Part shown: one piece after another, positions 42,222 through 63,023 of the stretch
Numbering within the stretch: the stretch's first letter is position 1
How the letters are laid out: each line of letters begins with the position of its first letter
DNA from: Oscillospiraceae bacterium
GTDB lineage: Bacteria; Bacillota; Clostridia; Oscillospirales; Oscillospiraceae
Direction of reading: 5' to 3'
Length of the DNA: 64,000 bases
Assembly: GCA_021201735.1 (NCBI GenBank)
Contig: JAJQEJ010000059.1
Span: 1-64,000, forward strand
Notes under the pieces: model-generated
What the model was told of the DNA's origin: nothing
What the model saw: the letters and a program-made list of their open reading frames with translations, nothing else
Databases searched by the model: none
Program-made: the position numbers and the translations under genes

Positions 42222-42275
42222 TATAGTGTGTTTTGTTTGTGGCGCTAAAATTGCAAGCGGGAAGGATGTTTGAAA

Positions 42276-44696
42276 ATGAAAAGATCAACCAAAGTTTGCG
42301 GCGCTTTACTGGCGGCTGTATTCGTGATACAGTTGATTCCTTACGCGGCCCAGGCCAAAACACTTGAATCGGCCAAGTGTGAAAACCTCTTTTTCTACGC
42401 GTTAAATGCGGAGGGAAAAAGCGTCCTGCTCAAGGTCATAGAGCTTGACGAGCTCAAGGCAATTTCCCACGGTCAGCCCGACAATGGCGATATCAATTAT
42501 TATGCATCCACTACGGATAATTTCCCAACGACCCAGTACGTGGAGGCAAGAGGTATCACCCTGCCGGAGCTGGTGGATTATGTAAGCGCGAACGCAACAA
42601 TGCAAGGTGCCCACAACCTGACCTATGCAGGCAATGATGTGATGCGGTTTTGTGCGACAGATGGCGGCGGAATATATAACAGGTCATGGACTTATGATGC
42701 GCTATACGGAGAACCGCGCTATTACTTTGAAGGCCTCTATGATTCCAATTACGGCTGGACACAAGGTTGGGAGATTTGCGAAGATTCTAATTCAGCACTT
42801 GCCTTAGAGACATATTATCAGGCATACCAAGGCAGCGACCCATATTATGAAGATAAACGGGCCGTATTTAATAACGGTACAGAGTCGTCAGTGATTCTGG
42901 GGACAACGGGGCTGTCCGGCCGGACGGCCTTCAATGATACAAATGATGACTCATGGGGAGAACTGGGACTTGCCGGATATATCGCGGCAAACGGCGGCGT
43001 TGCCGCGGGCTGTTTGGATGGTATGCTCTCGGATGAGCAATCGCTGCGCCTGGTCATCCCCATGACCGAAGCGGATTTGATGTCTGGACACCGGACATGT
43101 TATGATCATTTCAAGTGGATTTATAACATCCGACTGGATATGGTGGATGCACCAAATATCCCGTCCGAGGGGACGGTTGCAGAGCCTGTCGTAACCATGA
43201 CACCCAGCGACGATGGGGGTACCCTTTCAATCTCCATTGCCTGCGACACCCCAGGCGCATCCATCTATTATTCCTATGACGGTGCGCCCCAAATTCTTTA
43301 CACCGGAACGATTTCCATGGATGTCACCGGCCGGGACCTGGAAAAGGAGCCCGTTAAAATTTGGACAACGGCGGTACGAGAGGGCTGGGATGATGCGGGC
43401 ATTTTGACATCAGGGGTCAATGCGGATGGTACATATCCGTTGGAAGAAAGCCAGATATTAGATCAGCAAGTAACCATTACTTCAGGAAACGACAGCACAA
43501 CAGGAAATATGAGCTTAAGCGCAGCACAAACAGGAGACATTGCTATTACAATAGAACCGAACGCAAGCAATGGACTTAGTATCTTGAAAATAAACGGAAG
43601 ACTCTATCCATTTGACAGTGGTGCCTATTCTGGAAAACGAATCGTCGGGGATTTTACTGTTGCGAATAATAGTAACTATACAATAACGGATGCAAGGATT
43701 GAAAAAGCATCAGATTCTGATATCAGCATATCCATCGCGGTATTAGATAAAAACCGAAATACAACATACGAAATCAGTGGCAAGATAACAAGCGGTAATT
43801 ACGCCGGTATCAATACCTATGCACAGACTGCGCGGACCAAGTATCTTGCCAGCAACGATCAGGCCGATTATAATGACTTGCTGGTGAAATTAGATCTGAA
43901 AGTAGAAAGCAGCAGTGAGCAAACTATTGTCGCAGACACTAACACATCCTCCACCCAACTTATTTCTGCTTATGCGACAGTTGCTTCAAATTCTCCCAAA
44001 AAGGAGCTTGAGGACTTCAGCTTCTTGGAACTGAATACACTTCTGGACGGAATCAGAACGTGTGATACTGGTATATTATGGCTCTCTGATCTGGACTTCG
44101 AAGTTTCAAGCGAGTTCTTTACTGAAACCAGTATGAAAATCGAAACAGATTCAGATACTTCTTCCAATATAAAATATCGTGTATATAAGTATAACTTTCA
44201 AGATTTGCATGGAAGCTATTTAACTAGAATCACTCTTATGCAATATATCAAACACAGTGATATAAATACTTCATCTGGCAAGCCACAATTCGAGGTTAAA
44301 ATCGCGAACAGTTTGATACTTGAATATAATGGTGCGGGAGGTGTCCTGCTTTATCTTGATGATGCGGGTTTTAAGATTAGCAATATAAAAATCCTAATTG
44401 ATAATGTTCGAGTAACTGATGCTGCTCATTCGGATACCGAGCTTTTTTTCAAATCTTTTGCAACAACCGGACACGTCTCCTCTATATCAGACACAGGTGA
44501 ATTGCTTGCTAGTAATGCATCTGTTGTAATTGCATCTGCCATACCAGTAGCACTATGGGGCGCTCTTTTATCTTCTATGGTTGCTGTTGTGGCTTCCTCT
44601 ATATCGATTAGTAATAGTGATACCGGTCTAAATGAAACGGGGATGATTTATTCTATGAAACTGCCGCCGATCAAGTGGAGGCCTATGGAGACCTGA
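42276..44696 (+). CDS. Large secreted protein sharing its N-terminal domain with the 23441 protease; 3' end frameshifted
   Basis: 806 aa with a signal peptide (LLAAVFVIQLIPYAAQA). The N-terminal domain (about 35-290) includes VEARGITLPELVDYVSANA, matching QEARGFTVEEFVSYMV of the 23441 protein. It is followed by a chitobiase-like strand segment (TPGASIYYSYDGAPQ) and a long beta-rich region. A hydrophobic stretch near the C terminus (about 765-785) could span the membrane. The frame ends at TGA 44696, but the next frame carries plausible protein sequence to 44836, so the true C terminus was probably longer. ATG 42276 has GAAGGATG upstream. Function unknown. Confidence 0.75.
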   Translation: MKRSTKVCGALLAAVFVIQLIPYAAQAKTLESAKCENLFFYALNAEGKSVLLKVIELDELKAISHGQPDNGDINYYASTTDNFPTTQYVEARGITLPELVDYVSANATMQGAHNLTYAGNDVMRFCATDGGGIYNRSWTYDALYGEPRYYFEGLYDSNYGWTQGWEICEDSNSALALETYYQAYQGSDPYYEDKRAVFNNGTESSVILGTTGLSGRTAFNDTNDDSWGELGLAGYIAANGGVAAGCLDGMLSDEQSLRLVIPMTEADLMSGHRTCYDHFKWIYNIRLDMVDAPNIPSEGTVAEPVVTMTPSDDGGTLSISIACDTPGASIYYSYDGAPQILYTGTISMDVTGRDLEKEPVKIWTTAVREGWDDAGILTSGVNADGTYPLEESQILDQQVTITSGNDSTTGNMSLSAAQTGDIAITIEPNASNGLSILKINGRLYPFDSGAYSGKRIVGDFTVANNSNYTITDARIEKASDSDISISIAVLDKNRNTTYEISGKITSGNYAGINTYAQTARTKYLASNDQADYNDLLVKLDLKVESSSEQTIVADTNTSSTQLISAYATVASNSPKKELEDFSFLELNTLLDGIRTCDTGILWLSDLDFEVSSEFFTETSMKIETDSDTSSNIKYRVYKYNFQDLHGSYLTRITLMQYIKHSDINTSSGKPQFEVKIANSLILEYNGAGGVLLYLDDAGFKISNIKILIDNVRVTDAAHSDTELFFKSFATTGHVSSISDTGELLASNASVVIASAIPVALWGALLSSMVAVVASSISISNSDTGLNETGMIYSMKLPPIKWRPMET

Positions 44697-44884: not shown

Positions 44885-45523
44885 ATGATGATATCAAAGG
44901 CAACGAAAACACACCTCTCCATCATTGTTATACTGGCTATCGCGCTGCTCTGCTGCATCCTTTATGCTGTGAACCGTACGAAGGTAATCGATAGAATTGA
45001 TGGGAGTTGTGTACGTGTCATAAGATCGGCGGCATACGGTGCGCAAACAGATATTGATCGCATGCGAGATCAGACTCTTACGCTGGAAGAACGGCAAGAG
45101 GCACTGCTTGAGCTGTCATGGAATCTTGAAATGATGGATCATTATATTGCTCTGATCTCCAATTATGAAGACATCGATTCTCTCGGTTCTATTGCCAATC
45201 AGTTCAGAATCCCCGGCATGTGGCTGCTTGGTAAATGGGACGAAGTTGGATATCCGGTTCATGACTCTATTTTTGCAGATGGCATGATAGACAAACAAGA
45301 ATCAACTATATTAGACCTGCTGTATACCGATATGAAAGAAATATCTGACGCTATTATTATCACAGATATATCTGATTCCAGTCCTCCCGTGACCCAATCG
45401 CAGGTCATACGCAGCAAAGAGCTGATTCCTTTGTTAATTGAAATTACCGAACAGTGGGTTATACCTGAGGCCGGGGGTACCCGCTGGGACGCTTATGAGG
45501 GGTTGCCGCACGTTACACGTTAA
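44885..45523 (+). CDS. Single-pass membrane protein of unknown function
   Basis: 212 aa with an N-terminal anchor (about 10-28, LSIIVILAIALLCCILYAV) and a mostly helical outside domain (LTLEERQEALLELSWNLEMM). No family recognised. The start is ATG 44885 or 44888. It follows the frameshifted secreted gene by 49 bases and may belong to the same unit. The stop codon TAA is directly followed by the ATG of a 39-codon frame. Confidence 0.65.
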   Translation: MMISKATKTHLSIIVILAIALLCCILYAVNRTKVIDRIDGSCVRVIRSAAYGAQTDIDRMRDQTLTLEERQEALLELSWNLEMMDHYIALISNYEDIDSLGSIANQFRIPGMWLLGKWDEVGYPVHDSIFADGMIDKQESTILDLLYTDMKEISDAIIITDISDSSPPVTQSQVIRSKELIPLLIEITEQWVIPEAGGTRWDAYEGLPHVTR

Positions 45524-45795: not shown

Positions 45796-45812
45796 TATTG
45801 CTCTGTAAACAC

Positions 45813-47120
45813 CTACCCCCGCCGCACGGTGCGGCGGCGGAAGGGGGCGGGCAGATAGTCGTCAATTCCACCGCTGACGGAGAGGTCCTGCATCTTGGCC
45901 CGCACCTGAAAGATGCAGTCCTCCTCCCGCGCACGGCCGAGCGCGACGTCCTCGGCAAAGGCGTGGCAGCTCGGCGCGCCGCAGGAGCCGCAGTGCAGGC
46001 CGGGGAGGCGGCCTTCCAGCTCCTGAATCAGGCGCTGCTTTTCCATCGCCGCGCCGAAATCCTCATCAAGCAAAAAGCTCGGCAGGGATTGCAGCGGGCG
46101 GACGTGCTCCAGCAGGGGCGTAATATCCTCGCCTGCCTGCTCCCCCGCGCGGTCACTCGCCTGCGCGAGCGCCTCCATGCGCATATAGGCGGCATGCGGG
46201 TTTTCCACCGTGAAGCAGCCCCCCTGGCAGCCACAGGCGCAGGCGGAGAGCGCAACCAGATCCACATCGGGCACCCGTCCGTCCTCCAGCGCCTCCAGCA
46301 GATGGATGACATTTTCCACCCCGTCGGCGGAGAGGCGGCGCTCTCCTTCCCCCGCCGTGCGCGCCGTGGCACAGCGCAGGCCCTCGCCCCCCGCCGTGCG
46401 CAAGGCGGGAATGGGCGCGCCGCGCTCCAGCAGCGTGCGCATATGTATTGGCAGTACGCGGCAGATATCCCGCATGGAAAACGCGCCGTCAAGCACGGGC
46501 ACTGCAAAGGTGTCCGGGCTGTGGGCGGCCATGCGCTTAGCGGAGCACGGCACAATGGCAAACACCCCCACCCGCTCCGGCGGCAACCCCGTCCTTTCGC
46601 ACGCCTCCTGCCGCGCGAGCACCGCGGCAAGCTCCATCGGCAGCAGGGGCGTCTCCAGCTGGGAGATCAGACGCGGAAAGCGCATCCGGATCAGGCGCAG
46701 CACCGTGGGACAGGCGGCGGAGATGCGGGGCGTCCCCGTCTGCCCGCTATGGGCGGACACGTGAGCCGCGAGCAGCTCGGCGGCGCGGGCGACCTCATAC
46801 ACCCCGTCAAACCCCATCTCCAGCAGGGCGGATAGAATGAGGTCAATATCCACCGGCTGGGGAAACTGCCCGTAAAGCGCCGGTTCTGGCAGGGCGACGC
46901 GGTAGTCAAACTCCTGTAGCACCGCCATATCGTCCCCCTTGGCACGGATCGCTTTGCGGCGGCATACGGCAATGCATTTGCCGCAGTCAATGCAGCGGTC
47001 ACTCAAAATCTCCGCCTTCCCGCTGCGCACGCGGATGGCCTCGGTCGGGCAGGAGCGGATGCAGGAGGTGCAGCCGCGGCATCGCTCCTCGTCCAGATAG
47101 ACGGCATGCTGAATTGTCAT
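45813..47120 (-). CDS. [FeFe]-hydrogenase-like iron-sulfur protein (putative sensory type)
   Basis: 435 aa. Two 4Fe-4S ferredoxin motifs at the N terminus (CRGCTSCIRSCP, CIDCGKCIAVCR). The middle is an H-cluster-like domain with altered hydrogenase motifs: SAACPTV in place of TSCCPxW, VPCSAKRM for MPCxxK, and CACGCQGGC for the last motif. The C-terminal Fe-S domain (LHCGSCGAPSCHAFAEDVA) is of the type seen in sensory hydrogenase-like proteins. The next upstream gene is an ATP-binding anti-sigma-type kinase, a known association. I infer a redox or H2 sensor rather than an enzyme. ATG 47120 chosen; upstream extension is Arg-rich shadow. Confidence 0.8.
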   Translation of the reverse strand: MTIQHAVYLDEERCRGCTSCIRSCPTEAIRVRSGKAEILSDRCIDCGKCIAVCRRKAIRAKGDDMAVLQEFDYRVALPEPALYGQFPQPVDIDLILSALLEMGFDGVYEVARAAELLAAHVSAHSGQTGTPRISAACPTVLRLIRMRFPRLISQLETPLLPMELAAVLARQEACERTGLPPERVGVFAIVPCSAKRMAAHSPDTFAVPVLDGAFSMRDICRVLPIHMRTLLERGAPIPALRTAGGEGLRCATARTAGEGERRLSADGVENVIHLLEALEDGRVPDVDLVALSACACGCQGGCFTVENPHAAYMRMEALAQASDRAGEQAGEDITPLLEHVRPLQSLPSFLLDEDFGAAMEKQRLIQELEGRLPGLHCGSCGAPSCHAFAEDVALGRAREEDCIFQVRAKMQDLSVSGGIDDYLPAPFRRRTVRRG

Positions 47121-51172: not shown

Positions 51173-51206
51173 TCGGCGCGTGGAACGGCATTCGTAGGAC
51201 AACAGG

Positions 51207-51266
51207 AAGTGCACCCCTTACGTTCGTGTTCAGTAGATCATACTGTCTGACGTTTGGGGTGCACTT
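51207..51266. repeat. 60-bp imperfect inverted repeat with IS3-like ends
   Basis: Outer arms AAGTGCACCCC (51207-51217) and GGGGTGCACTT (51256-51266) are perfect. Inner CAGTA...TACTG also pairs, giving a long hairpin between the binding-protein gene and the convergent DUF4116 gene. It can act as a bidirectional terminator. From memory the outer sequence resembles IS3/IS150-group ends, so it may be an internally deleted insertion sequence; not verified. Confidence 0.55.
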
Positions 51267-51314
51267 CATTGCATGCAAGTGATATTCTGGCCGCTTCGCC
51301 GGGCTTTCCTGCTC

Positions 51315-52106
51315 TCAGCAGGCTATGGCGCGGCTGCGCGCCGCGCGGGCGGCCGCCTCTTTCCACGGCGCTTCCACAAATTTCAGCGCCTCCGGTGTCT
51401 GCCGCACCGCGGCAAGGCAGATGGCCTCGGTCTGTACCTCCACGTAGGCGAGGAGGTTCCCATTCTGCCGTACCGCCTCCAGACAGACCGCCTCTGTCTG
51501 TTCCCCGATGAGTTCAAATACCCCCCAGTCCACACGCACCGCAAGCTTGCACAGGCGTTCGCTCGGGTTTTGCAGGGTGCGGATCGCGACGGGATTTTTT
51601 ATGATTTGCTCCATCTCCAGAATCGCCGGTGTCTTCTCCCGCACAAAGGGCAGGGCGTCCGGGTTTTGCAGCAGCGCCAGTATACAAAGCTCCTCTGTCT
51701 GCTCCTTTACATATTGCAGTGCAAGGCCATTGCGCTTCACCGCCCGCAGGCACATGGGCTGTGTCTGGTGCTCAATATATCGTAGTGCCATGGGATTTTG
51801 CCGGAGCGCCTCCAGGCAGATTTCCTCGCTCTTCTCCTCCACATGGCTCAGCGCGAGCCCATTTTGCCGGATGGCAAGCCTGCAGAGGGCCGGGGTCTGC
51901 TTGCGCACCGCGCTCAGCACGATTCCGTTGCGCGCCAACGCCATAGCGCAGAGCGTCTCGGTCTGCTCTCTGAGATGCAGGAGAGACCACGGATTGGACT
52001 TTACCGCCTCTACACAGAGGGCTTGGGGCGGGTCGTTGATATACTTGATAAATGCGCCGTCCTTGCGCACCCGTTGGAGATAATCGTCAAATTCACTCTG
52101 GCACAT
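51315..52106 (-). CDS. DUF4116-type repeat protein
   Basis: 263 aa made almost entirely of about 9 repeats of 23-24 residues, with the pattern AVRQNGLALSHVEEQTEEICLEA (two helices per unit; variants such as AVKRNGLALQYVKEQ). The array would form an alpha-solenoid for protein binding. AAGGAGTG precedes ATG 52106. It is last gene of the AAA+/VWA cassette, 22 bases after the VWA gene, suggesting an adaptor or target-recognition role there; inference only. Confidence 0.8.
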   Translation of the reverse strand: MCQSEFDDYLQRVRKDGAFIKYINDPPQALCVEAVKSNPWSLLHLREQTETLCAMALARNGIVLSAVRKQTPALCRLAIRQNGLALSHVEEKSEEICLEALRQNPMALRYIEHQTQPMCLRAVKRNGLALQYVKEQTEELCILALLQNPDALPFVREKTPAILEMEQIIKNPVAIRTLQNPSERLCKLAVRVDWGVFELIGEQTEAVCLEAVRQNGNLLAYVEVQTEAICLAAVRQTPEALKFVEAPWKEAAARAARSRAIAC

Positions 52107-52128
52107 AGGTCACACTCCTTATATGGCT

Positions 52129-54582
52129 TCAGCGGCTGGAAATGCCGGCTAAGATTTCTTTTTCCAGCAGTCTGGAGAGGGTTTTGGGCATCTGTTCCTC
52201 ATCAGAGATGTCGATGTGCGCCTCTCCATAAATCTGCTTCATCTGCGCCTGATCCTCCCCAATGGCGAAGGCCAGCGTCTTGATCCCCCTGCGTCGGGCG
52301 CTCTGCACCACCCCCCTGATATCGTTTTTCGCCAACGCGCCGCCATATCCGCTGGAGTTCGGCTGCCCGTCGGACAGGATCATTAACAATTTATTCTTTT
52401 CGGTGCGCTCCGCCAAAAAGTTCGCCGTAATGCCCAGCGCCATGCCGTCGCGGTTGTCTCCCTCGGCCGCCATTTGGTTCACCGCGTATTTGGCGGTCTT
52501 GACATCCTCAAACTGCTTATAGACGCGATAGCACAGCGCGTGGTCACAATGATAACCCGCGATCAGGGTGGGAATCTCCAGCCATTCCAACACCTCCGTG
52601 AGCAGCATGGCGGACTCCTTGACGGCGGTAAGCCGCTTCCCCCCCATTGAGCCGCTGTTGTCCACAAGAATCGCAACGGACATATCGAGGAGCTTATCCG
52701 GGTTTTTCTTCTTTGTAAAGTACCTCTGATCCACTTTATAGGCGCTCTTCGCGTCCACCTTTCTGCCAATATAGCGGTGCCGCTGCGTGGTAACGCCCTC
52801 CTCCTGGATCATCTTCTGCACCTCTCTGTATATCTTTTTCAGATAGGTGCGGTTGGTATCTATGATCCCCTCATAGACCTGCTGATCCTCCAATCCGGGG
52901 AGGACCTGCCGCAGCACCAGCGCGATGCCGAAGTGGGGGGAGCACATGTTCTCCGTGGTAATGTGGGTGACGGCCTCATTGAGCTGATCCTGCGCCGCCA
53001 GCACCTCCGCTTTCTCTTGCCTCAGGTCGGCATAAATCTGATCCATGACACGCTGCAGCATCTCCTCCGGGTACTGGGTGTTCCCCTGCTCGGAGAATTC
53101 CTGCTCCGCCGCTGGGGCATCCTCCTCAGAAGCATCGGCGCCCTGTCGGAAAATATTCTCCGGAGGGGAGGAAAAAGCCTCACCGCCGCAACACTCCATG
53201 GCGCGCTCCAGCTGATCCATCAGCGCCCTCACCGCGTCCATCCCATGTCCGGCGCGACCGCCGCCCCCGCCGTTCCCGCTTGCACCCTGCTCCAGGGACG
53301 GAGCCGCTTGCGTGTCCTCATCGCTGCCGCCCGTACTGCTGCCGCCGCTCCCGTCTTCCTCGGCGGTGTCTCCGCTGCCGGAAGTGCCGCCGCGCTTCTC
53401 CTCCGACGGGTCGCCGCCGTCTCCACCGCCGCCGTCGCGTTCGGTGTCCTCCTCGCCGCCGCCTTCCTCGCCGCTCCCGGTGCCGTCGTCCTCGCCGCCG
53501 CCAGACTGAATCGTCTGCTCCCCGTCGTTCTCCCCGTCGTCGCCGCCGGGCTTAGGGCCACCCTCACCACCGGGGTCGCCGCCCTCCTCGCTGCCGTCGT
53601 CGCCGTCCGCGTCACCAAAGCCGCCGCCCTCCTCATCGCGCTCTCCCTCGTCTTCACCGCCGCCGCCGTCGCCGCCGCTCTCCTCCGAGGGCTCCTGCTC
53701 ATCGTCGGCCTCCAGCGCTACGGACATGCGGATGAAGGGCCACAGCTGCTCTGCCATCACGTTGATACAGCCGTATTTTACCCCCAGATCATCGGTCGCC
53801 TTCGCCGTATCCATATAACCCTGCATGCTATGAAGCGCCTGCATATACCAAGAGGATTCCATGGTCTCCTCCCGCAGGACAAAGACGCTGCCAAAACGGG
53901 CATATTGCAGCAACAGCGCGGTCATAATGGTCAGGGGCGTGTGCTCCCCGCACGCTATGAGGCTCTCCAGCGAGGGCAGATTGGAAAACAGCCCCTCCCT
54001 GAGTGTTATAATGCTCTTTTTGACAAAGGCACTATGGCTGCGGCACATTTTTTCCTCATCGTGTGCGTCACTGATGACGTTGGCAAGGTCGGAGTATATC
54101 TTCTCAATGAGCGCGGCGTACTCCGGCTGCTTCATCGCCGCCATAATCTCGCCCCGCACCCGTCCGTCCTCCATCTGATCCCGCTTGTCGCCCGCGAAGG
54201 GCATTTTTCCTGTTTTGAGCGCCTGTATCGCCGCGAATTCACCCTTGATGTCAAAATATAACACATGGGCAAGCTCATGAAATAAGTATCCCAAGATAAC
54301 GAACACCTTATTCTGATGGGCGGCAAAATTGCGGGTAAGCAGATTACAGGTATCAATATAGATGGTTTTCCCATAGGTGCGCGACGCGGGAATCGTTTTC
54401 TCCGGGCCGGATTGTTGCAGCACCAGCTTCAGCGGTACGGTACGCCCCGCGCTCAGGGTACGCAGCAGATCGTTCAGGTATTCCGAAAAGTAGGAGGAAC
54501 CGGTGAATGTCTCAAATCCGATTTCATCCGCGTTCAGGTGGTCGAGGTGGGCGCGCACACGCTCCAAAAATAAGCTCTCCAT
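52129..54582 (-). CDS. Zincin-VWA protein (CobT/DUF2201-like partner of an AAA+ ATPase)
   Basis: 817 aa. An N-terminal domain with HELAH in YLFHELAHVLYFD (about residue 104), a zincin metal motif. A long Gly/Asp/Glu-rich low-complexity linker (about 295-450) is followed by a C-terminal von Willebrand A domain with the MIDAS motif DNSGSMGG (about 640) and later ILSDGQPNS. ATG 54582 has GGAGGCGGAG upstream. VWA proteins with MIDAS commonly act with MoxR/CobS-type ATPases, and one is encoded 17 bases upstream. A peptidase activity is possible but unproven; the third zinc ligand is not obvious. Confidence 0.85.
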   Translation of the reverse strand: MESLFLERVRAHLDHLNADEIGFETFTGSSYFSEYLNDLLRTLSAGRTVPLKLVLQQSGPEKTIPASRTYGKTIYIDTCNLLTRNFAAHQNKVFVILGYLFHELAHVLYFDIKGEFAAIQALKTGKMPFAGDKRDQMEDGRVRGEIMAAMKQPEYAALIEKIYSDLANVISDAHDEEKMCRSHSAFVKKSIITLREGLFSNLPSLESLIACGEHTPLTIMTALLLQYARFGSVFVLREETMESSWYMQALHSMQGYMDTAKATDDLGVKYGCINVMAEQLWPFIRMSVALEADDEQEPSEESGGDGGGGEDEGERDEEGGGFGDADGDDGSEEGGDPGGEGGPKPGGDDGENDGEQTIQSGGGEDDGTGSGEEGGGEEDTERDGGGGDGGDPSEEKRGGTSGSGDTAEEDGSGGSSTGGSDEDTQAAPSLEQGASGNGGGGGRAGHGMDAVRALMDQLERAMECCGGEAFSSPPENIFRQGADASEEDAPAAEQEFSEQGNTQYPEEMLQRVMDQIYADLRQEKAEVLAAQDQLNEAVTHITTENMCSPHFGIALVLRQVLPGLEDQQVYEGIIDTNRTYLKKIYREVQKMIQEEGVTTQRHRYIGRKVDAKSAYKVDQRYFTKKKNPDKLLDMSVAILVDNSGSMGGKRLTAVKESAMLLTEVLEWLEIPTLIAGYHCDHALCYRVYKQFEDVKTAKYAVNQMAAEGDNRDGMALGITANFLAERTEKNKLLMILSDGQPNSSGYGGALAKNDIRGVVQSARRRGIKTLAFAIGEDQAQMKQIYGEAHIDISDEEQMPKTLSRLLEKEILAGISSR

Positions 54583-54599
54583 TTCTCCGCCTCCCCTTT

Positions 54600-56321
54600 T
54601 TACAGGTACAAATCCACCACAGAGGAGATCATAGCCGCCTGCTCCTCCATATCGTTGCTCCCCTTGGCGACCACACACTCAATACAGTCCTGCTTCAAGT
54701 CGGAAAAGCCGTCCAGCTTGGCCGTCAGCACCCACATTTCCAGCTCCGAAACGGAGATGCTGCCGTCGGTAATACCCTTATCCTGACAGAATTCCCGCAG
54801 CTTGCTCCACACCGTATAGCAGGTCTCCAGCACCGACTGCTCCTCCACCCGGGTGTTCATGGACAGGCGTTCAAACACCTTCTTTTTTGGCATATCGTAG
54901 CTGTCGATGATGCACGCCATACGCCGAATCACCGAGGGATCCAGAAGACGGCAGGAATGATAGCCCACGTTGTCGGTGTAGACCACAACCGCATTCCTGT
55001 GCCGCCGGGTGTGGGAGCCGTCCACCAGCGGAATGACCGCCCCCGGGCGGTCGTACTCGTTGAGCCCCACCAGCACTCCGCTGTCCTTGATGCGGGAAAT
55101 CTCCTGCACCTCTACGATATAGCCTTTTTCCAGCGCCTTTACGTAGTTGGACGCCACATGCTTGAACCGGGGCACATTACTCTCCGTCTCCCGCACAAGA
55201 GACGCATACGCCTCCATACACTGGTCGGGCGTCGCGTCCTCCTTCCTGCTCCCTGTCATGTGAAAATACGCCCCCGCCGGGTTTTCGGCGATCTCTGCAA
55301 AGGAGGGCCGCGCCAGCGGCTGCGCCGCCACCGCATTGGGTACAAAGTCGCTCAAAAAGTCCTGCGTCTCCATATTGCTGTGGCAGGTGACACGCAGTAG
55401 CGGCATATGCAAAATACAGGCCATTACCTCCACGCCGGTGGATTTTCCATAGGCTGTGATCCCCCGCCACATGAAATTCACCATGGGCCGCTGCTCGTTT
55501 TGGGAGTAGACAAAGCGCTGCGCCAGCTTCATGGTTTCCTCCGGCACCGGAAAGCTGTCTTCAAAGACAGGGATTAGATCCAGTTCCTCCTCCGTCCATT
55601 GGAACTGCGCGGAAAACGCGCGGAACAGCTCCTTTGCCTCCGCCACACTCACCACCGCCGTCGCCCCGGTGGAGGAGGCGGTGTGGGACAGGAGCACCGG
55701 TTTCCCGCAAATCACCTTGTGATAGCGCATCCCGCCCAGCGAGACTGTCTGCTCGTCCAAGAGGGCAATTGCGCCGGATTTATCGTCAATCTCCATCTTC
55801 TTTTCGGTGAAAATCCGGTACAGCGCATCACTGAGCTTGTAGAGCGCACCCCCGTCGAATGGCGCGTGCCTGTTGCTGTTCCCCTCCAGCTGCTCCAAAA
55901 GCGCGTTAACCTCTGCAAATTTCTCCCGCAAAGTGGGGAAAAATCCAAGCAGGAGGGGTGTGGCATCAAAGTCCTCCTCTGTGAGCAGGTTGGGAAGGGA
56001 CTGGTAGCCCCCCGCCTCCGTGACGATGGCCGCGCGGATGGTTCCGTTCTTTTGCAGGCTCGCAATGAGCCGCCCCTGAGCGAGCGCCGTCTCGGTGGCA
56101 TAGACAGTCTCACTGATTTTCACCAGTGCAATCTCCGCCGTATCCCCGCCGAAATAGTTGAGCACCGCCTTGACCACCCATGCGTTAAGGCACGCCAGCT
56201 TCTTCCCCTGATTCAACTCCGACATGGAATTGGTGTCTGTGGTCGTCTCCTCCATGGTGTTATATGGCGCCGGTAAGTCTCCTGTAAAAAAGGAGTTTTT
56301 AGAAAATAAAATTGAGTTCAC
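54600..56321 (-). CDS. AAA+ ATPase of the MoxR/CobS kind
   Basis: 573 aa. A long N-terminal region (about 1-265) precedes an ATPase domain with a P-loop of the form GxxxxGKS in RGITAYGKSTG (about 285). The following RVTCHSNMETQDFLSDFVP and VQEISRIKDSGVLVGLNEYD fit the second-region/Walker B and sensor areas of MoxR-like ATPases. The Walker B acidic motif is atypical (VEVQEIS). GTG start at 56321 with GAGGG upstream; ATG 56255 is an alternative. First gene of the cassette with its own promoter and tandem operator repeats. Confidence 0.78.
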   Translation of the reverse strand: MNSILFSKNSFFTGDLPAPYNTMEETTTDTNSMSELNQGKKLACLNAWVVKAVLNYFGGDTAEIALVKISETVYATETALAQGRLIASLQKNGTIRAAIVTEAGGYQSLPNLLTEEDFDATPLLLGFFPTLREKFAEVNALLEQLEGNSNRHAPFDGGALYKLSDALYRIFTEKKMEIDDKSGAIALLDEQTVSLGGMRYHKVICGKPVLLSHTASSTGATAVVSVAEAKELFRAFSAQFQWTEEELDLIPVFEDSFPVPEETMKLAQRFVYSQNEQRPMVNFMWRGITAYGKSTGVEVMACILHMPLLRVTCHSNMETQDFLSDFVPNAVAAQPLARPSFAEIAENPAGAYFHMTGSRKEDATPDQCMEAYASLVRETESNVPRFKHVASNYVKALEKGYIVEVQEISRIKDSGVLVGLNEYDRPGAVIPLVDGSHTRRHRNAVVVYTDNVGYHSCRLLDPSVIRRMACIIDSYDMPKKKVFERLSMNTRVEEQSVLETCYTVWSKLREFCQDKGITDGSISVSELEMWVLTAKLDGFSDLKQDCIECVVAKGSNDMEEQAAMISSVVDLYL

Positions 56322-56344
56322 ATCTATCCCTCGACTTTTGTTTA

Positions 56345-56384
56345 GTTAGCTATCGCTAATTATAGTTACCTACCGCTAATTATA
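56345..56384 (-). promoter_or_regulatory. Tandem 20-bp repeats overlapping the AAA+/VWA cassette promoter
   Basis: Two head-to-tail repeats on the minus strand, TATAATTAGCGGTAGGTAAC (56384-56365) and TATAATTAGCGATAGCTAAC (56364-56345), agree at 18 of 20 bases. The first provides a TG-extended -10 box (TGGTATAAT). Each holds a palindrome TTAGC-N4-GCTAA (perfect in the second). The start codon follows 24 bases later. This is a likely repressor site; the regulator is unknown. Confidence 0.75.
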
Positions 56385-56474
56385 CCACAAATCATGCAGT
56401 TGTACATCTAATTTGATAGAAATAAGCCCTAAATTATCTCCAAAAAGTGATGCGTCTTATGGTGTACTATTGAT

Positions 56475-56531: not shown

Positions 56532-57374
56532 TCAGGATGTGGCGGACTCCAGCAGGGCGGCGACAGCCTCCAACTGGTTCGGGGAAATATCCTCAATCTC
56601 CCCCCGGTCACAGTAACCGGAAAAGCGAGGGTCAATGGGAACCCGCCCCAAAACGGGGATGGCGAACTCCTCCGCCACCTTGTCAAGGGTACTGGGTCCG
56701 AAAATCTCATGCCGCCCGCCGCAGTCGGGACAGACGAAATAGCTGAAATTTTCCACCAGGCCAAGGAGTGGCACCCGCATGAGCTTCGCCATATTCACCG
56801 CCTTGGCGACAATCTTCCTCACCAAATCCTGGGGCGACGTCACCATGACGATCCCATTCACGGGAAGGGACTGGAACACTGTCAGGGGGACATCTCCGGT
56901 GCCGGGCGGCATATCTACAAACAGGTAATCCAGCTCTCCCCATATCACATCCCCCCAAAACTGCTTTACAACCCCCGCAATGACAGGGCCACGCCAGATA
57001 ACGGGATCGGTCTCGTTTGGCATGAGCAAATTCAGGCTAATCACCTTGATCCCGCCCTTAGAGGCGACCGGCAGAATGCCGTTATCGTCGGTATATGCCT
57101 GGGTATGAAGACCAAATGCGGTAGGGATGGAGGGGCCGGTAATGTCGGCGTCCAAAATCCCGACCTTTTTCCCCTGCTTTGCCATAGCCACGGCAAGGGA
57201 TGACGTCACAAAGCTCTTGCCGACCCCGCCCTTGCCGCTCATCACCGCAATGACATTTTTGATCTGGGAGAGCTCATGCGCCGGAACACTGAAATTGGGC
57301 ACCGTATTCTTCGGTTCGCCGCAAGTGCCGCTCTGTGCGCAGGATGAGCAGCTCTCGCTGTTACATTCTGACAT
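56532..57374 (-). CDS. Mrp/NBP35-family Fe-S cluster carrier ATPase
   Basis: 280 aa P-loop NTPase with deviant Walker A GKGGVGKS (about 47), LDADITGPS and the CxxC pair CPDCGG (about 218-221) that bridges a cluster in the dimer. The N-terminal Cys-rich tail (CNSESCSSCAQSGTC) resembles NBP35-type proteins. It lies downstream of the transhydroxylase subunits, which need three 4Fe-4S clusters, so a dedicated maturation role is plausible. Separated from the beta-subunit gene by an 81-base gap with a hairpin. Confidence 0.88.
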   Translation of the reverse strand: MSECNSESCSSCAQSGTCGEPKNTVPNFSVPAHELSQIKNVIAVMSGKGGVGKSFVTSSLAVAMAKQGKKVGILDADITGPSIPTAFGLHTQAYTDDNGILPVASKGGIKVISLNLLMPNETDPVIWRGPVIAGVVKQFWGDVIWGELDYLFVDMPPGTGDVPLTVFQSLPVNGIVMVTSPQDLVRKIVAKAVNMAKLMRVPLLGLVENFSYFVCPDCGGRHEIFGPSTLDKVAEEFAIPVLGRVPIDPRFSGYCDRGEIEDISPNQLEAVAALLESATS

Positions 57375-57455: not shown

Positions 57456-58310
57456 TTACAGGCTGTCAATCGAAATATTGCCAAGGTTGAGCGAGTTATT
57501 GTTGATGGCCACGGTATCCGTCACGCCGATCTGAGGCACGGTTACCTTCTGCACCAGCTTGTCATCGGCATACAGGGAGTACTCACCCGGATCCAGATGA
57601 TCAAACTTGAAATCACCGAAGTAATTGGTAACCTGCGTCTCGTCCACGCCGTTACCGACCAGACGCGCCGCGACACCCTTGACACAGTCGCCGTTTTTGA
57701 TGAACCCGCCGCCCACAAAGGCCTTATCAAACAGGTAGTAGTTCTTGTAGAAGACGTGGGGCTTTGTGTTCAGGTCGGGCATAACGACATCCAACTTCTC
57801 GTCTTTGATCTTCTGCTCCATCTCCTCCGGCTCAATGCAGTAGTGCTTAATGGCCTCGGTGGGGCAGGAGTGGGCACAGCGGGGCATGCCGGGCGCATCG
57901 CCGGAGTCGATGAGATGGGCACACATGGTGCACTTCTGCGCCACGCCGTACTCCTCGTTCCAGTAAATCGCGCCGTAGGGGCAGCTGTCCACCAGGGACT
58001 TCTTATCCCGTGCCTTCTCCGCGTCAATGAGGACAATCCCGTCCTCTCGGCGGACAATGGCCTCTGGATTTGCCTTCTGGCAGGGCGCGTCCTCGCAGTG
58101 CATACAGGGGGTGGGGCGGTAGGAAACGTCAATGCGGGGATAGAGCCCGCGCTCATTGCGTTCTATGTTCATCCAACGGTGTCCGTGGCGGGGCTGCGGC
58201 TCCGTGTAGGGCGACCAGTCGTTATCAACATATTCATCCTTACAGCTAATAAAGCAGTTGTTGCAGTCAAAGCAAAGGTTCACATCAATTACTAAATAAT
58301 GCTGTTTCAT
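57456..58310 (-). CDS. Pyrogallol-phloroglucinol transhydroxylase, beta (Fe-S) subunit
   Basis: 284 aa, close to the 274 aa I recall for the Pelobacter acidigallici beta subunit. Cys motifs for three 4Fe-4S clusters: CFDCNNCFISC, CMHCEDAPC with CPYGAI, and CTMC with CAHSCP. A C-terminal beta-barrel (about 200-284, DETQVTNYFGDFKF and PGEYSLYADDKLV) of Cna-B type is a feature of this subunit and not of ordinary ferredoxin subunits. Overlaps the alpha-subunit gene by one base (TAATG). Confidence 0.85.
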   Translation of the reverse strand: MKQHYLVIDVNLCFDCNNCFISCKDEYVDNDWSPYTEPQPRHGHRWMNIERNERGLYPRIDVSYRPTPCMHCEDAPCQKANPEAIVRREDGIVLIDAEKARDKKSLVDSCPYGAIYWNEEYGVAQKCTMCAHLIDSGDAPGMPRCAHSCPTEAIKHYCIEPEEMEQKIKDEKLDVVMPDLNTKPHVFYKNYYLFDKAFVGGGFIKNGDCVKGVAARLVGNGVDETQVTNYFGDFKFDHLDPGEYSLYADDKLVQKVTVPQIGVTDTVAINNNSLNLGNISIDSL

Positions 58311-60907
58311 TACTCTTCTCCTTTCCAGTTTTCAATTTCCACAAGGCAGTGCTCCGTCGCCATGCCGGACGCGTATTTCGAGAGGAAGCGGGACGGAGTG
58401 AGAATATTGATACAGCCGCCGAGGTCTGTGGACTTGCCGGGCTCGCCGACCGGCTTATACTCAGCACAGGACTCATAGCAGTGGCACGTACCCTCAGGAA
58501 CACGCTCGGTGAGCTGCGCCGCAAAGACGACGGAGCCGCGCTCGTTATATGTCCTGACCAGCGTGTGATGCTTGATGCCGCGCCTTCTCGCATCGCGCGG
58601 GTTAATACGGATAATCCAGTAGAACTCGCCGTCCACCTCGACGCGGTGATCCTTGATATCATTCATCCACGCGTCCTTGCCGTCGCCCATGGTATGGAAG
58701 GAGAAGCGGGGATGCGGCGAAAGAACTGCCAGCGGGTATTTCTTGAAGCGTTCGCTATGGTGTCCCTCGAAGGAGGGGATATACATCGGCATCAGCGGGC
58801 GCTCCTTGTCGTCAGTGTCGTAGTGCCCGAAGCGCTTGAGGCTGTTCGAGACGAACTCGACCTTGCCGGTCTGGGTCTGCAGGCCGTCGGGACGGGTCTT
58901 GACGTGCGGCGGGAGGTTCGTCGCCCAGCCGCGGAGATCTTCCTTGCGGCCCTCAGCAAACCAGCGCTGCGCAGGTGCCGACGGCGCCTTGTTCGTGACG
59001 GGCACAATGTAGTAGCCCTTTTCGGTAAAGTCCTCCCAGCTGATGACCTTGGGGAGGTCCGACGCGTAGAACATCTGGCGGCACCAGTCGAGATCGGTCT
59101 TGCCCTCGGCAAAGACATCACCCGTACCCAGACGCTCACAGATCAGGCGGAAAATTTCATAGTCGGCCTTGGATTCGCCCAGCGGCTCAATGCACTTTTT
59201 CTGGAAGACGATCACGCGGTGGTTGCCCTGGTTGTGGGAGTCGGGGTTGTAGCCGGAGTTACTCGACCACTCGCCAATATCCCAGCGCTCGAAGTTGGTG
59301 CACGCGGGCAGAATGATGTCGGCGAAGGGAACCTCGCCCTCAAACCAGATGGATTGGCTGATGACAAACGGCAGACGTTTCGTCCGGTACATTCTCGCGT
59401 AGCGGTCGCCCTGGCCCATGGTGCCGATGTGCGGGCCGCCGTACTTGTGCAGGAACTGGATGCGGTTATAGCCTGCCGCGGGATACTCATAATGGTGGAA
59501 CTGCTGCTCCTGTGACGCGCCGACAAAGCCACGGCCCCACCACTCGACCTTGTCGTCCAGAATACACTCGGGCAGACGCATACGGTCGATATGGACGCCC
59601 GCGCCGGTACTCAGGTTGGAGGTCATGCTCTTGGTGGTCACGCCGTCAAACATACGGAAGGCAAAGCACGCGCCGCCGAAGGTGTTGTCACAGTCGCCGG
59701 AAATGCCGCCGTCGGAGTAGCCGGGGAAGTAGAAGTCCGAGTCAACGGGCGCGCCCTGCGTGGTGCTGAAGAGGTTGATGCCGGGCTTGCCCATGCCCTG
59801 CATGGTGATCAGCGCGATCATCATGCGCGCCCAGTCCATGCCGATGGGGCTGCGGCAGCAGCCGCCCCAGCCGCCGAGTCCGCCGGCTGCCAGCATGGTC
59901 TTCTTGCTCGCCCACTCACGCGCGAGGGCACGGATATCCTCGGCGGGGATGCGGGACTCCTTCTCCGCCCACTCTGCGTCCTTGGGGATGCCGTCGGTAC
60001 GGCCGAGTACGTAATCGACCCACTCGTCAAAGCCGAAGGTCTTTTCCGCGACGTACTCTTTGTCGTACAGGCCTTCCACGAGCCATGTGTGGGCAATGCC
60101 CAGCGCCATCGCCGCGTCGGTGCCGAGCTGCGGGGAGAACCACTTGCCACGGTACAGACCGGCGGAGTGGTTGTAGAACGGGTCAATCCAGACCATCTCA
60201 ACGCCCATGTCGTACAGCCAGCGGCGGCGGATGGTGCTTTCAAACGCGCTGTAAATGCCGTTGTTCGTCTCCGGGTCGGAGGACCAGAAGACCAGCATCT
60301 CACAGTTTTTGATGCAGTCTTCATACAGGTCGGTCTGCGCGGGGTTACCCAGACGGCCTGTAAAACCCCACATATGGGTTGCGCCCCAGTGCCAGCCTTC
60401 CCATGAGTCCGGGTTATGGTCGCCGTAAGTGTAGCCTGCGGCGTTCATGAAGCGGATCAGGGAGCTGTGGCGGTAGCCGACGTTGCCCCAAAGGTGGTGG
60501 GAGCTCGGCTCAATGACGCAGCAGCCGGGGCCGAAGTCCCGTTTGATGCGCTTGATTTCGCTGGAAACAATATCCAAAGCCTCGTCCCATGAAATGCGGA
60601 CATAGCCCGACTCGCCGCGCTTTTCCTCGTTGCGCTCGCCGTTGGGGTCAAAGTCCACGCGCTTCATTGGATACAGATTGCGGCGCTCTGTGTAGATCAT
60701 GGCCTTAAAGCCCTGCGTCACAGGCGTCACCGTTGTCTTACGCGGGGGGGTATAGGACTTCCCTCTCGCCTCAACAACCCAGGAATCTGCATCGTCGTCG
60801 TCAAGATCAATCGGCGTCATACGGACAATTTTATCCTGCTCCTCATCGACGTAGACGAATACGGGGCCGCCGGTTGTCAGTTGGGTCTTTCTCACTAAAT
60901 TCGCCAT
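58310..60907 (-). CDS. Pyrogallol-phloroglucinol transhydroxylase, alpha (molybdopterin) subunit
   Basis: 865 aa, bis-MGD Mo enzyme of the DMSO-reductase family without an N-terminal Fe-S cluster motif. It converts 1,2,3- to 1,3,5-trihydroxybenzene. Several residues I recall as catalytic in the Pelobacter structure appear here with a constant offset of seven: His137, Tyr145, Arg146, Asp167-Ser168-Trp169 (Ser as Mo ligand), Trp347 and Tyr397 (His144, Tyr152, Arg153, Asp174/Ser175/Trp176, Trp354, Tyr404). No Tat signal; cytoplasmic. GGAGGACGG precedes ATG 60907. Related arsenate- or tetrathionate-type enzymes are less likely given the beta subunit. Confidence 0.87.
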   Translation of the reverse strand: MANLVRKTQLTTGGPVFVYVDEEQDKIVRMTPIDLDDDDADSWVVEARGKSYTPPRKTTVTPVTQGFKAMIYTERRNLYPMKRVDFDPNGERNEEKRGESGYVRISWDEALDIVSSEIKRIKRDFGPGCCVIEPSSHHLWGNVGYRHSSLIRFMNAAGYTYGDHNPDSWEGWHWGATHMWGFTGRLGNPAQTDLYEDCIKNCEMLVFWSSDPETNNGIYSAFESTIRRRWLYDMGVEMVWIDPFYNHSAGLYRGKWFSPQLGTDAAMALGIAHTWLVEGLYDKEYVAEKTFGFDEWVDYVLGRTDGIPKDAEWAEKESRIPAEDIRALAREWASKKTMLAAGGLGGWGGCCRSPIGMDWARMMIALITMQGMGKPGINLFSTTQGAPVDSDFYFPGYSDGGISGDCDNTFGGACFAFRMFDGVTTKSMTSNLSTGAGVHIDRMRLPECILDDKVEWWGRGFVGASQEQQFHHYEYPAAGYNRIQFLHKYGGPHIGTMGQGDRYARMYRTKRLPFVISQSIWFEGEVPFADIILPACTNFERWDIGEWSSNSGYNPDSHNQGNHRVIVFQKKCIEPLGESKADYEIFRLICERLGTGDVFAEGKTDLDWCRQMFYASDLPKVISWEDFTEKGYYIVPVTNKAPSAPAQRWFAEGRKEDLRGWATNLPPHVKTRPDGLQTQTGKVEFVSNSLKRFGHYDTDDKERPLMPMYIPSFEGHHSERFKKYPLAVLSPHPRFSFHTMGDGKDAWMNDIKDHRVEVDGEFYWIIRINPRDARRRGIKHHTLVRTYNERGSVVFAAQLTERVPEGTCHCYESCAEYKPVGEPGKSTDLGGCINILTPSRFLSKYASGMATEHCLVEIENWKGEE

Positions 60908-61295: not shown

Positions 61296-61883
61296 ATGAA
61301 AGAAACCAAACAGTGGATTCTGGAGGCCGCCGCCACCATCTTTGCAAAAAACGGATTCAACAGCACCACCACGCGCGCCATTGCGGACTTGGCGGGCATC
61401 CATGAATCCACGCTGTTTCGGATCTACAAGAGCAAGGAGGCACTCTGGGAGGATCTTCTCCTGAACATGACGCCCAACGCGGAGTCCATCGATGTCAATG
61501 AGCTGACGGGGGGGGCCGATTTGGAGAAGGATTTTCAGTATCTCTTCTACTGCGGTGCCATGCTGCACGTGCGGCATATTCCGGTATTTCGTTTTGCCAT
61601 GCAGATGGAGGCGCAATACGACGCCGACCGCTTTGCCAGAATCGAGAGCATGATATCCTATATGGAGCGTTATTTTACCGCGCTGATGCAGCGGGATATT
61701 TTAGTGGAATTCGACTACCGCATGCTTGCGGAGCATGTCAACAGCCTGACCTTTATTAAGGCGACAGAGTTTATCGCGGCGGAGCAGTTTAATATCCCCG
61801 CGGAGCAGTCCGCACGCACCTTCGCCACGCAGTATGGAACGTACTTTGCGCATATTTTGGACGCAAATATTTATTTAATTTAA
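61296..61883 (+). CDS. TetR-family regulator, probable regulator of the transhydroxylase operon
   Basis: 195 aa. N-terminal HTH (STTTRAIADLAGIHESTLFR) and a variable ligand-binding domain ending FATQYGTYFAHILDANIYLI. Divergent from the transhydroxylase genes with two identical-form palindromes between. Ligand is probably pyrogallol, phloroglucinol or a related phenol; inference from context. Confidence 0.88.
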   Translation: MKETKQWILEAAATIFAKNGFNSTTTRAIADLAGIHESTLFRIYKSKEALWEDLLLNMTPNAESIDVNELTGGADLEKDFQYLFYCGAMLHVRHIPVFRFAMQMEAQYDADRFARIESMISYMERYFTALMQRDILVEFDYRMLAEHVNSLTFIKATEFIAAEQFNIPAEQSARTFATQYGTYFAHILDANIYLI

Positions 61884-61996: not shown

Positions 61997-62620
61997 CTAC
62001 GCCTTCCCCACATGCAGCAAGCACAGCGCAACCGTCATCTCGACACTGCCCGCCATCACCTCTGCCGCGCGCTTGGCAATCTCCTTGGAATATTCCTGTA
62101 TCCCCTCATGGACATTCATCCGCAGGCAGGTGCGCACCATATAGGACAAAAACGTCTCGGTGATCAGCACCGCGTCCTGCAGGGAGATGACATTCGGGTA
62201 CATCGCCTGCAAATACTCCACCATAAAGTTGCGCATCGACGCCGGGATGCACCACAGGCGCTTTGCCAGCGGCTCGAAATTCGGGCCGTCCTCGACAAAA
62301 ATGCGCAGAATATCCATGTGCTGAAACAGCACCTCAAAAAAATAGCCCGACAGGACGGTCAGGTCCATATGCAAATTGGTATAGGTCAGTCTGGCTTGCA
62401 GATAATCCTCGTCAATCTCCACCATGTGAAAGCGCTCGACGACCGCGTAAAACAGCGCCAGCTTATCCTCAAAATGGCGAAAAATCGTGACGGAATTGCA
62501 CCCGGCCTCCTTGCTGATGTCCTTGATTGTTGCGGCGGAGTATCCTTTTTGGGAAAAGACACGCAGCGCCCCCTGCAATATCCGCTCATGGGTCTCCTCA
62601 AAGCCCTTCGTCGTCGCCAT
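61997..62620 (-). CDS. TetR-family regulator
   Basis: 207 aa. HTH (SAATIKDISKEAGCNSVTIFRH) followed by a helical ligand domain. The start at 62620 has GAGGGGG upstream and lies inside the end of the metallopeptidase gene; a longer frame to 62857 is shadow of that gene. No operator recognised nearby. Likely cotranscribed with tex and the metallopeptidase; targets unknown. Confidence 0.87.
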   Translation of the reverse strand: MATTKGFEETHERILQGALRVFSQKGYSAATIKDISKEAGCNSVTIFRHFEDKLALFYAVVERFHMVEIDEDYLQARLTYTNLHMDLTVLSGYFFEVLFQHMDILRIFVEDGPNFEPLAKRLWCIPASMRNFMVEYLQAMYPNVISLQDAVLITETFLSYMVRTCLRMNVHEGIQEYSKEIAKRAAEVMAGSVEMTVALCLLHVGKA

Positions 62621-63023
62621 TGCATCCCCCTCTTTTCCGCTGATCGTGTTGGTCGTGCCACCGGTCAAGATAGGCCTCACGCTCCAGCGCGTCCTTGATC
62701 TCCAGCCCGCGTTCTCCCGCCCGGCCCTCCATATGGTGAGTAAATTCGTGGGCAAGCGTGTCGTACAGCTCCTGCATGAGCGCCTCCCTGTCCAAATCGC
62801 CGTAAAGCGCCATAAATGAACCATAGTATATTTTAATGTATCGCCCCATCTGGTCACGGCAATACTGCCCCATCACATACACCCTGCCGCCGGGGGGATA
62901 GTTGTCCGGGCGCTTGCGCCCCCGCAGGAGCAGGATGCCGCCGTTGAGCTCTTCATAAAATTCCTTTGGGAAACGCTCGGCAATCTCATCGAGCATGTCC
63001 CCCACCTCTTCAAAGCGGAACAT
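62598..63023 (-). CDS. Small zincin-like metallopeptidase (DUF1025 type)
   Basis: 141 aa with the metal motif AHEFTHHMEG (HExxH) and ILLLRGRKRPDNYPP. Family members are small soluble predicted zinc peptidases of unknown substrate. GGAGGGCAGGGCG precedes ATG 63023; a longer in-frame start at 63056 lies within tex. Overlaps tex by 14 and the TetR gene by 23 bases, so all three are coupled. Confidence 0.85.
   Translation of the reverse strand: MFRFEEVGDMLDEIAERFPKEFYEELNGGILLLRGRKRPDNYPPGGRVYVMGQYCRDQMGRYIKIYYGSFMALYGDLDREALMQELYDTLAHEFTHHMEGRAGERGLEIKDALEREAYLDRWHDQHDQRKRGGCNGDDEGL

Follow-up and report, generated by a model that had tools for sequence, protein, structure and literature searches.

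Architecture of the AAA+, VWA and DUF4116 cassette

The stretch of DNA analysed here (the window) comprises positions 1 to 64,000 of contig JAJQEJ010000059.1 from an Oscillospiraceae bacterium (assembly GCA_021201735.1). It carries a cassette of three genes on the minus strand, in the order AAA, VWA and DUF4116, with intergenic gaps of only 17 and 22 bp. An original prediction, made from the DNA letters alone, had described these genes as one cassette with its own tandem-operator promoter. The features of the cassette are as follows.

54600..56321, minus strand: MoxR/NorQ-like AAA+ ATPase gene (573 aa, GTG start)
52129..54582, minus strand: predicted zincin-VWA adaptor gene (817 aa, ATG start)
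51315..52106, minus strand: DUF4116 repeat protein gene (263 aa), proposed client adaptor
56343..56384, minus strand: putative promoter/operator with two tandem 20-bp units, TATAATTAGCG(R)TAGSTAACT

The AAA protein is divided into two parts.

Residues 1-~240: N-terminal domain without assignment
Residues ~243-573: AAA+ module, with Walker A GITAYGKS (287-294) and a Walker B-like VEVQE (403-407)

Profile and fold matches support its assignment as a MoxR/NorQ-like AAA+ protein, the fold being closest to MoxR members with a match to CbbQ/NorQ, and they back the predicted pairing of a MoxR-type AAA+ with a VWA protein. As in other proteins of this type, it would be expected to form an ATP-hydrolysing hexamer. 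The N-terminal region, called unknown in the original prediction, yielded no noteworthy match in Pfam or the PDB. Among the 18 family AAA sequences, 17 carry the Walker A pattern GxxxxGK[ST], and L023 has Ala in place of the first Gly. The Walker B pattern hhhhDE is altered in all 18, with Gln in place of Asp and the Glu retained. The core GRxL[LI] of the NorQ H2-insert motif, given as GRxLL/IxxxxT in the available text of PMC13036017, is present in none of the 18. Because the window protein falls under the Pfam and NCBIfam cut-offs (AAA_5 in Pfam, E 0.14), cassettes of this kind are easily missed by routine annotation. The GTG start is also present in the sister genome L012.

The VWA protein is built from several parts, among them the HELAH motif, the acidic Gly-rich linker and the MIDAS (metal ion-dependent adhesion site) VWA domain claimed for it, all of which were located.

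N-terminal domain: HELAH (102-106) and D172xHDE176 (DAHDE, 172-176)
Residues 296-445: acidic, Gly-rich linker (37% G, 17% E, 14% D)
Between linker and VWA: a helical segment, then a finger-like segment (596-630)
CobT/NorD-type VWA domain: MIDAS DNSGS (641-645)

In Pfam, the VWA match lies well above the cut-off, and this half of the protein matches the NorD fold. The DxSxS of the MIDAS is present in 16/16 family VWA sequences and the later Asp (SDG) is invariant; an NRDG motif lies near the expected place of the Thr, which was not itself located. Segment 596-630 is conserved, modelled at low confidence, and positioned just before the MIDAS strand, where the pore finger of NorD sits. The N-terminal domain is predicted to be a metallopeptidase (zincin) arm. 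Its HELAH motif, noted earlier in the window protein, is conserved across the family: HExxH was found in 16/16 VWA proteins and 14/14 N-domains, along with an invariant DxxxE whose D172 and E176, candidates for a third metal ligand, lie on the downstream helix 153-182. Comparison of the 14 N-domains with curated peptidase families gave only weak, single-member matches (DUF4344, E 0.009; M48, E 0.045), and the PDB profile search gave no convincing match. The VIA-align rows cover mainly VWA residues 572-817 and are uninformative on the zincin domain.

The third protein matches DUF4116 in Pfam over three stretches (86.5 bits against a cut-off of 24.9) and is predicted to form an alpha-solenoid. 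The available text of PMC8078820 gives an alpha-solenoid as the contact-based model of this domain and a helical bundle as its homology model. The gene directly follows VWA in the window and in L014-L017, and in the 17 genomes tested DUF4116 was found in 6/6 with a cassette of the close type and in 0/11 others. Its place in the cassette, as originally proposed, is thus conserved within the closest clade. DUF4116 was rejected as a cassette-only domain, since 17/291 genomes of the class hold some DUF4116 protein.

The promoter region contains two tandem units, 90% identical, upstream of the AAA gene. The first TATAAT of the repeat is a -10-like box, with a -35-like TGTACA at 56406. Because this -10 hexamer is overlapped by the first repeat and a separate TATAAT lies inside each copy, the tandem repeat of the claimed tandem-operator promoter stands while the operator role is rated only plausible; no regulator was identified. 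The two-copy pattern (at most 3 mismatches) occurs at only these two sites in the window and at none in 100 shuffles. The 2.35-Mb, 97%-complete assembly adds a single site (3 mismatches), no excess over the 2 sites of a reversed control pattern, and an operator regulon was rejected on this basis. The sister genome L012 shows both copies; none was seen upstream of a second gene pair of the window genome or of four Lachnospiraceae/Eubacterium copies (400 bp, by eye and short-motif search). Given this distribution and the near-uniqueness of the pattern, the repeat looks like a putative local operator. A window-wide promoter scan showed no excess over shuffles (4 versus 3.2 sites).

Conservation of the cassette and its mobile relatives

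To examine the family, a genome scan was performed and 12 AAA loci were recovered. VWA directly follows AAA in 11 of them, and the remaining one (L012) stops at a contig end; elsewhere in that sister genome, the rest of VWA adjoins DUF4116 on another contig (L105). Four more distant AAA-VWA pairs are arranged in this way too, and in two of them a small gene separates AAA from VWA. Homologues were therefore not found singly in unrelated contexts: AAA and VWA stand together in the sufficiently flanked loci read, further AAA-match loci having been read only in part. The window genome encodes a second AAA-zincin-VWA pair (L004:8135-12128; G000:C38), 61% identical in AAA and 47-49% in VWA. This pair has no DUF4116 neighbour and is flanked by MFS-transporter-like and PhzF-like genes (by eye). 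Since the flanking genes differ between loci (gal-type and cysteine/NifS-type genes in Eubacterium, different genes elsewhere, by eye), conservation applies to the cassette itself rather than to one large cluster around it.

A tree of 44 AAA rows (18 from loci and 26 chosen among 120 listed of 267 proteins) placed the window protein, its paralogue, the four Lachnospiraceae/Eubacterium proteins, the sister species and database relatives in one group (99/100, 25 rows). The stem of this group, which holds the three-gene clade, is long; the outer order is unsure because of long branches elsewhere in the tree.

Divergent pairs occur in mobile-looking loci, with ParB, SSB, N6/N4 DNA methylase and primase-like genes. 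In L062-L065 and L120-L123, the recurrent small neighbours are N6/N4-methylase-like genes with a YPERG motif, zinc-ribbon genes and SSB-like genes (mostly by eye), and small helix-turn-helix genes lie between AAA and VWA in some of these pairs; this recurrence suggests a mobile-element module in Clostridia. The mobile-type VWA of L022, used as a query, matched 124 phage records at E <=1e-3. Among the 30 listed, identity to L022 is 23-39%, mostly in the VWA part, and none covers 80% of the query. Foldseek aligned almost the full length of the window VWA model with phage 'CobT'/VWA models (~830-960 columns for some), domain by domain, at a low overall template modelling (TM) score of about 0.2-0.3. 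The 'CobT' of Vibrio phage ICP2 contains HExxH and adjoins a P-loop gene annotated 'porphyrin biosynthesis'. A phage origin of the close-type AAA was rejected, the AAA alignment scan having found no relative in viral_contigs. The same scan with the VWA alignment found three divergent relatives, and a plasmid scan found one weak relative.

Jumbo phages are reported to carry a MoxR and metallopeptidase-VWA pair, for which a part in virion assembly was proposed (PMC7824862, available text), so the two-gene core is already a known kind. The view that the cassette is not explained by a known system accordingly falls for this core, given also its relatives in phage and mobile-like loci, and otherwise stands for the three-gene form: the available portions of the literature on MoxR-VWA and CobS-CobT pairs, DUF4116 and phloroglucinol/pyrogallol contained no account of it.

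Co-occurrence with a pyrogallol transhydroxylase homologue

The location beside a Mo/Fe-S (molybdenum/iron-sulfur) enzyme operon, noted in the original prediction, was confirmed, the genes matching pyrogallol hydroxytransferase (pyrogallol-phloroglucinol transhydroxylase). This Mo enzyme likely breaks down plant polyphenols. The features around the cassette are as follows.

56532..57374, minus strand: Mrp/NUBPL-type Fe-S carrier P-loop NTPase, upstream neighbour outside the cassette
57456..58310, minus strand: Fe-S protein, likely pyrogallol hydroxytransferase small subunit, candidate client context
58310..60907, minus strand: homologue of the large Mo subunit of pyrogallol hydroxytransferase, candidate client (4v4c, 1239 bits)
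51206..51267, no strand: inverted repeat between the DUF4116 gene and the gene convergent with it (18-nt arms, 89% complementary, 26-nt spacer)

The Mrp-type carrier gene lies 210 bp from the AAA gene on the same strand. In each of five enzyme regions that were read, a homologue of the small subunit has the large subunit as its neighbour. The enzyme was found in 6/6 genomes with a close-type cassette (two copies in 5/6) and in 0/6 genomes with a mobile-type pair. Eubacterium oxidoreducens is one cultured carrier of the cassette. In wider samples the enzyme occurs in 2/391 genomes of the class (the window's own and one with a 55% identical enzyme) and in 9/397 Lachnospiraceae, five of which carry a subtype 78% identical to that of the window. 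The family AAA is present in 27/397 Lachnospiraceae; the close type accounts for three, all among the five subtype-positive genomes, and the other 24 are enzyme-negative. The AAA and enzyme counts in the 397 genomes were taken as one sample (same handles where listed). Fisher's test for co-occurrence of cassette and enzyme gave 1e-6, or 8e-5 with the two Eubacterium genomes counted once, in a sample centred on a cassette genome and involving about three lineages.

Several side observations concern the same genes. A second pyrogallol hydroxytransferase homologue of the window genome (L058; G000:C50:5857-9416) is 62% identical and adjoins thiolase-like and sodium:solute-symporter-like genes (by eye). 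The enzyme-positive genome G293 encodes a different VWA protein (L060:8761-11493; weak profile match) beside a 310-aa gene, a possible AAA+ partner. Two TetR-type regulator genes beside the transhydroxylase genes (61296-61883, plus strand; 61997-62857, minus strand) are candidates for control of these genes or of the tandem repeat of the AAA gene. The inverted repeat is strong and lacks a T-run; it may terminate transcription from both sides or represent a small repeat element. Three plus-strand open reading frames (ORFs) at 42270-44696, 44885-45523 and 45798-46835 (808, 212 and 345 aa) have no Pfam match at 1e-5 and are possible genes.

A putative remodelling machine and its alternatives

The cassette shares features with several known systems. 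To our knowledge, CobT lacks HExxH, and CoxD-CoxE lack both zincin and DUF4116. As described in the available texts, the pairs of jumbo and tailed phages (PMC7824862, PMC8651126) are alike in that AAA+ adjoins a VWA protein with an N-terminal metallopeptidase-like domain, and adjacent AAA+ and HExxH-VWA genes are indeed found here. The cassette differs from them in its chromosomal location, its third gene DUF4116, its association with a metabolic enzyme and its distant sequence. NorQ-NorD, which acts in FeB insertion into nitric oxide reductase (PMC13036017, PMC9976466), shares the AAA+ and VWA folds, a disordered linker between N-domain and VWA, and the flexible conserved segment at the pore finger site; the zincin-type N-domain, the DUF4116 partner, the large AAA N-domain, the Q-E Walker B and the missing GRxLL core set the cassette apart. 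CoxD-CoxE, for the maturation of Mo-Cu CO dehydrogenase, is likewise an AAA+/VWA pair serving a molybdoenzyme (PMC4240915, available text), whereas the enzyme here is of a different class and co-occurrence is not strict. The MoxR-vWA ternary conflict systems (Kaur et al. 2020, PMC7159879) likewise combine MoxR, vWA and a third gene, which according to the available text is VMAP, iSTAND or FtsH rather than DUF4116; moreover, no effector domain was seen in the cassette, which belongs to rare Clostridia rather than to multicellular bacteria.

With a probability of roughly 0.4, the three genes are read as one ATP-driven remodelling machine, whose client is perhaps a pyrogallol/gallate metalloenzyme and which likely derived from phage or mobile-element pairs of the same build. 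The NorD/CobT-like VWA protein would plug a MoxR/NorQ-like AAA+ ring and carry the zincin arm. In NorQD, the AAA+ pore is occupied by a finger of the VWA protein, and a twist of the VWA domain driven by ATP turnover has been proposed to stretch a linker so that the client takes up iron (PMC13036017, available text). By analogy, ATP hydrolysis would let the ring rotate its VWA plug. Force would then pass through the acidic linker as it is pulled and drive the zincin arm towards a client bound via the MIDAS and DUF4116; zincin arm and DUF4116 may hold or trim this client. Since CoxD-CoxE act on a molybdoenzyme and RavA-ViaA acts on fumarate reductase (PMC10585395, available text), a metalloenzyme is the most natural guess for the client. 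The client would belong to the fermentation of pyrogallol or gallate, with the transhydroxylase as prime candidate, and the machine would open it so that its cofactor can be loaded, repair it or trim it. The original prediction identified the parts of the cassette correctly, and the maturation role that it named was right as a possibility. The specific step from machine to transhydroxylase, for which the evidence is co-occurrence together with adjacency within a single genus, is less secure and rather doubtful.

Two observations weigh against a strict link. The enzyme-positive genomes G573 and G831, which carry the same subtype, are not among the family AAA matches and have no VWA or DUF4116. 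Their enzymes fall inside the same clade of an enzyme tree built from 15 large subunits, without the additional copies for which no locus had been fetched. A strict tie between enzyme and cassette is ruled out by these genomes, and the enzyme is not cassette-dependent everywhere. Furthermore, cassette and enzyme are non-adjacent in Eubacterium and other Lachnospiraceae, adjacency being confined to the genus of the window. The predicted link is supported by genome co-occurrence and is not obligatory; a working link between cassette and transhydroxylase is possible. Both observations would fit a general or differently targeted remodeller, with the co-occurrence a product of polyphenol fermenters living together and exchanging genes rather than of a client relation. 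This alternative, tentative yet to be taken seriously, is also favoured by the cassette's own promoter-like region and by the second pair at an unrelated place in the window genome. It sits less easily with the restriction of the close-type cassettes found to enzyme-positive genomes, which represent about three lineages and carry the cassette at differing positions in the chromosome, and with the report of the broader phloroglucinol pathway from many more bacteria (PMC10470551, available text).

Retention of a mobile-element function in the chromosome, such as processing or assembling particles or conjugation parts, or interfering with invading elements, is unlikely. The mobile-looking contexts of the outer relatives, their presence in phage records and viral contigs, and the virion-assembly role proposed for the jumbo-phage pair speak for it, while the long, well-supported stem of the cassette clade and the lack of any mobile-looking neighbour among those annotated or read by eye speak against it. 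The conflict-system option of the original prediction gained no positive support. PADLOC gave one chance-level match only (Csn2, E 0.34), on which the defence reading was set aside; this and the lack of an effector domain also speak against a retained mobile-element function. Pfam found no effector domain in the three proteins and no VMAP, iSTAND or FtsH match, dedicated profiles for these not having been run.

More improbable still is a CobST-like chelatase motor that inserts metal into a tetrapyrrole with a CobN-type subunit encoded elsewhere in the genome. CobS-CobT is likewise a metal-insertion motor with an AAA+ partner and a CobT_C-type VWA: CobT is the best PDB match of the VWA profile, and Pfam CobT_C was found in 15/15 family VWA sequences. 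Viral CobST has moreover been read as a set of cobalamin factors and proposed to use host CobN (PMC8651126, available text). Against this, the CobT equivalog TIGR01651 reaches only 19.3 bits of the required 759, and the added DUF4116 and intact HExxH would be left unexplained. A CobN-sized gene corresponds to an ORF of at least 900 aa, and none was found in the 64-kb window or in the 5 kb around each of the other four cassettes, the regions to which the search for it was confined.

If the remodelling machine is placed in an evolutionary frame, a ring-metalloprotease pair of phages or mobile elements may have been captured by chromosomes, gained the DUF4116 solenoid as a client-binding part and become devoted to maturing or repairing the transhydroxylase. 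This scenario is doubtful; if true, no earlier MoxR-VWA maturase with a zincin arm of its own would be known to us. As AAA+ machines go, MoxR-VWA pairs are comparatively poorly understood. The family described here couples such a pair to a putative metalloprotease and, within one chromosomal clade, also to a repeat protein and to a specific metabolic guild. A testable client is thereby offered for a class of machines that is also found on phages and mobile elements and is often annotated 'CobST', and the cassette may reveal an accessory factor for the anaerobic breakdown of gallate and pyrogallol.

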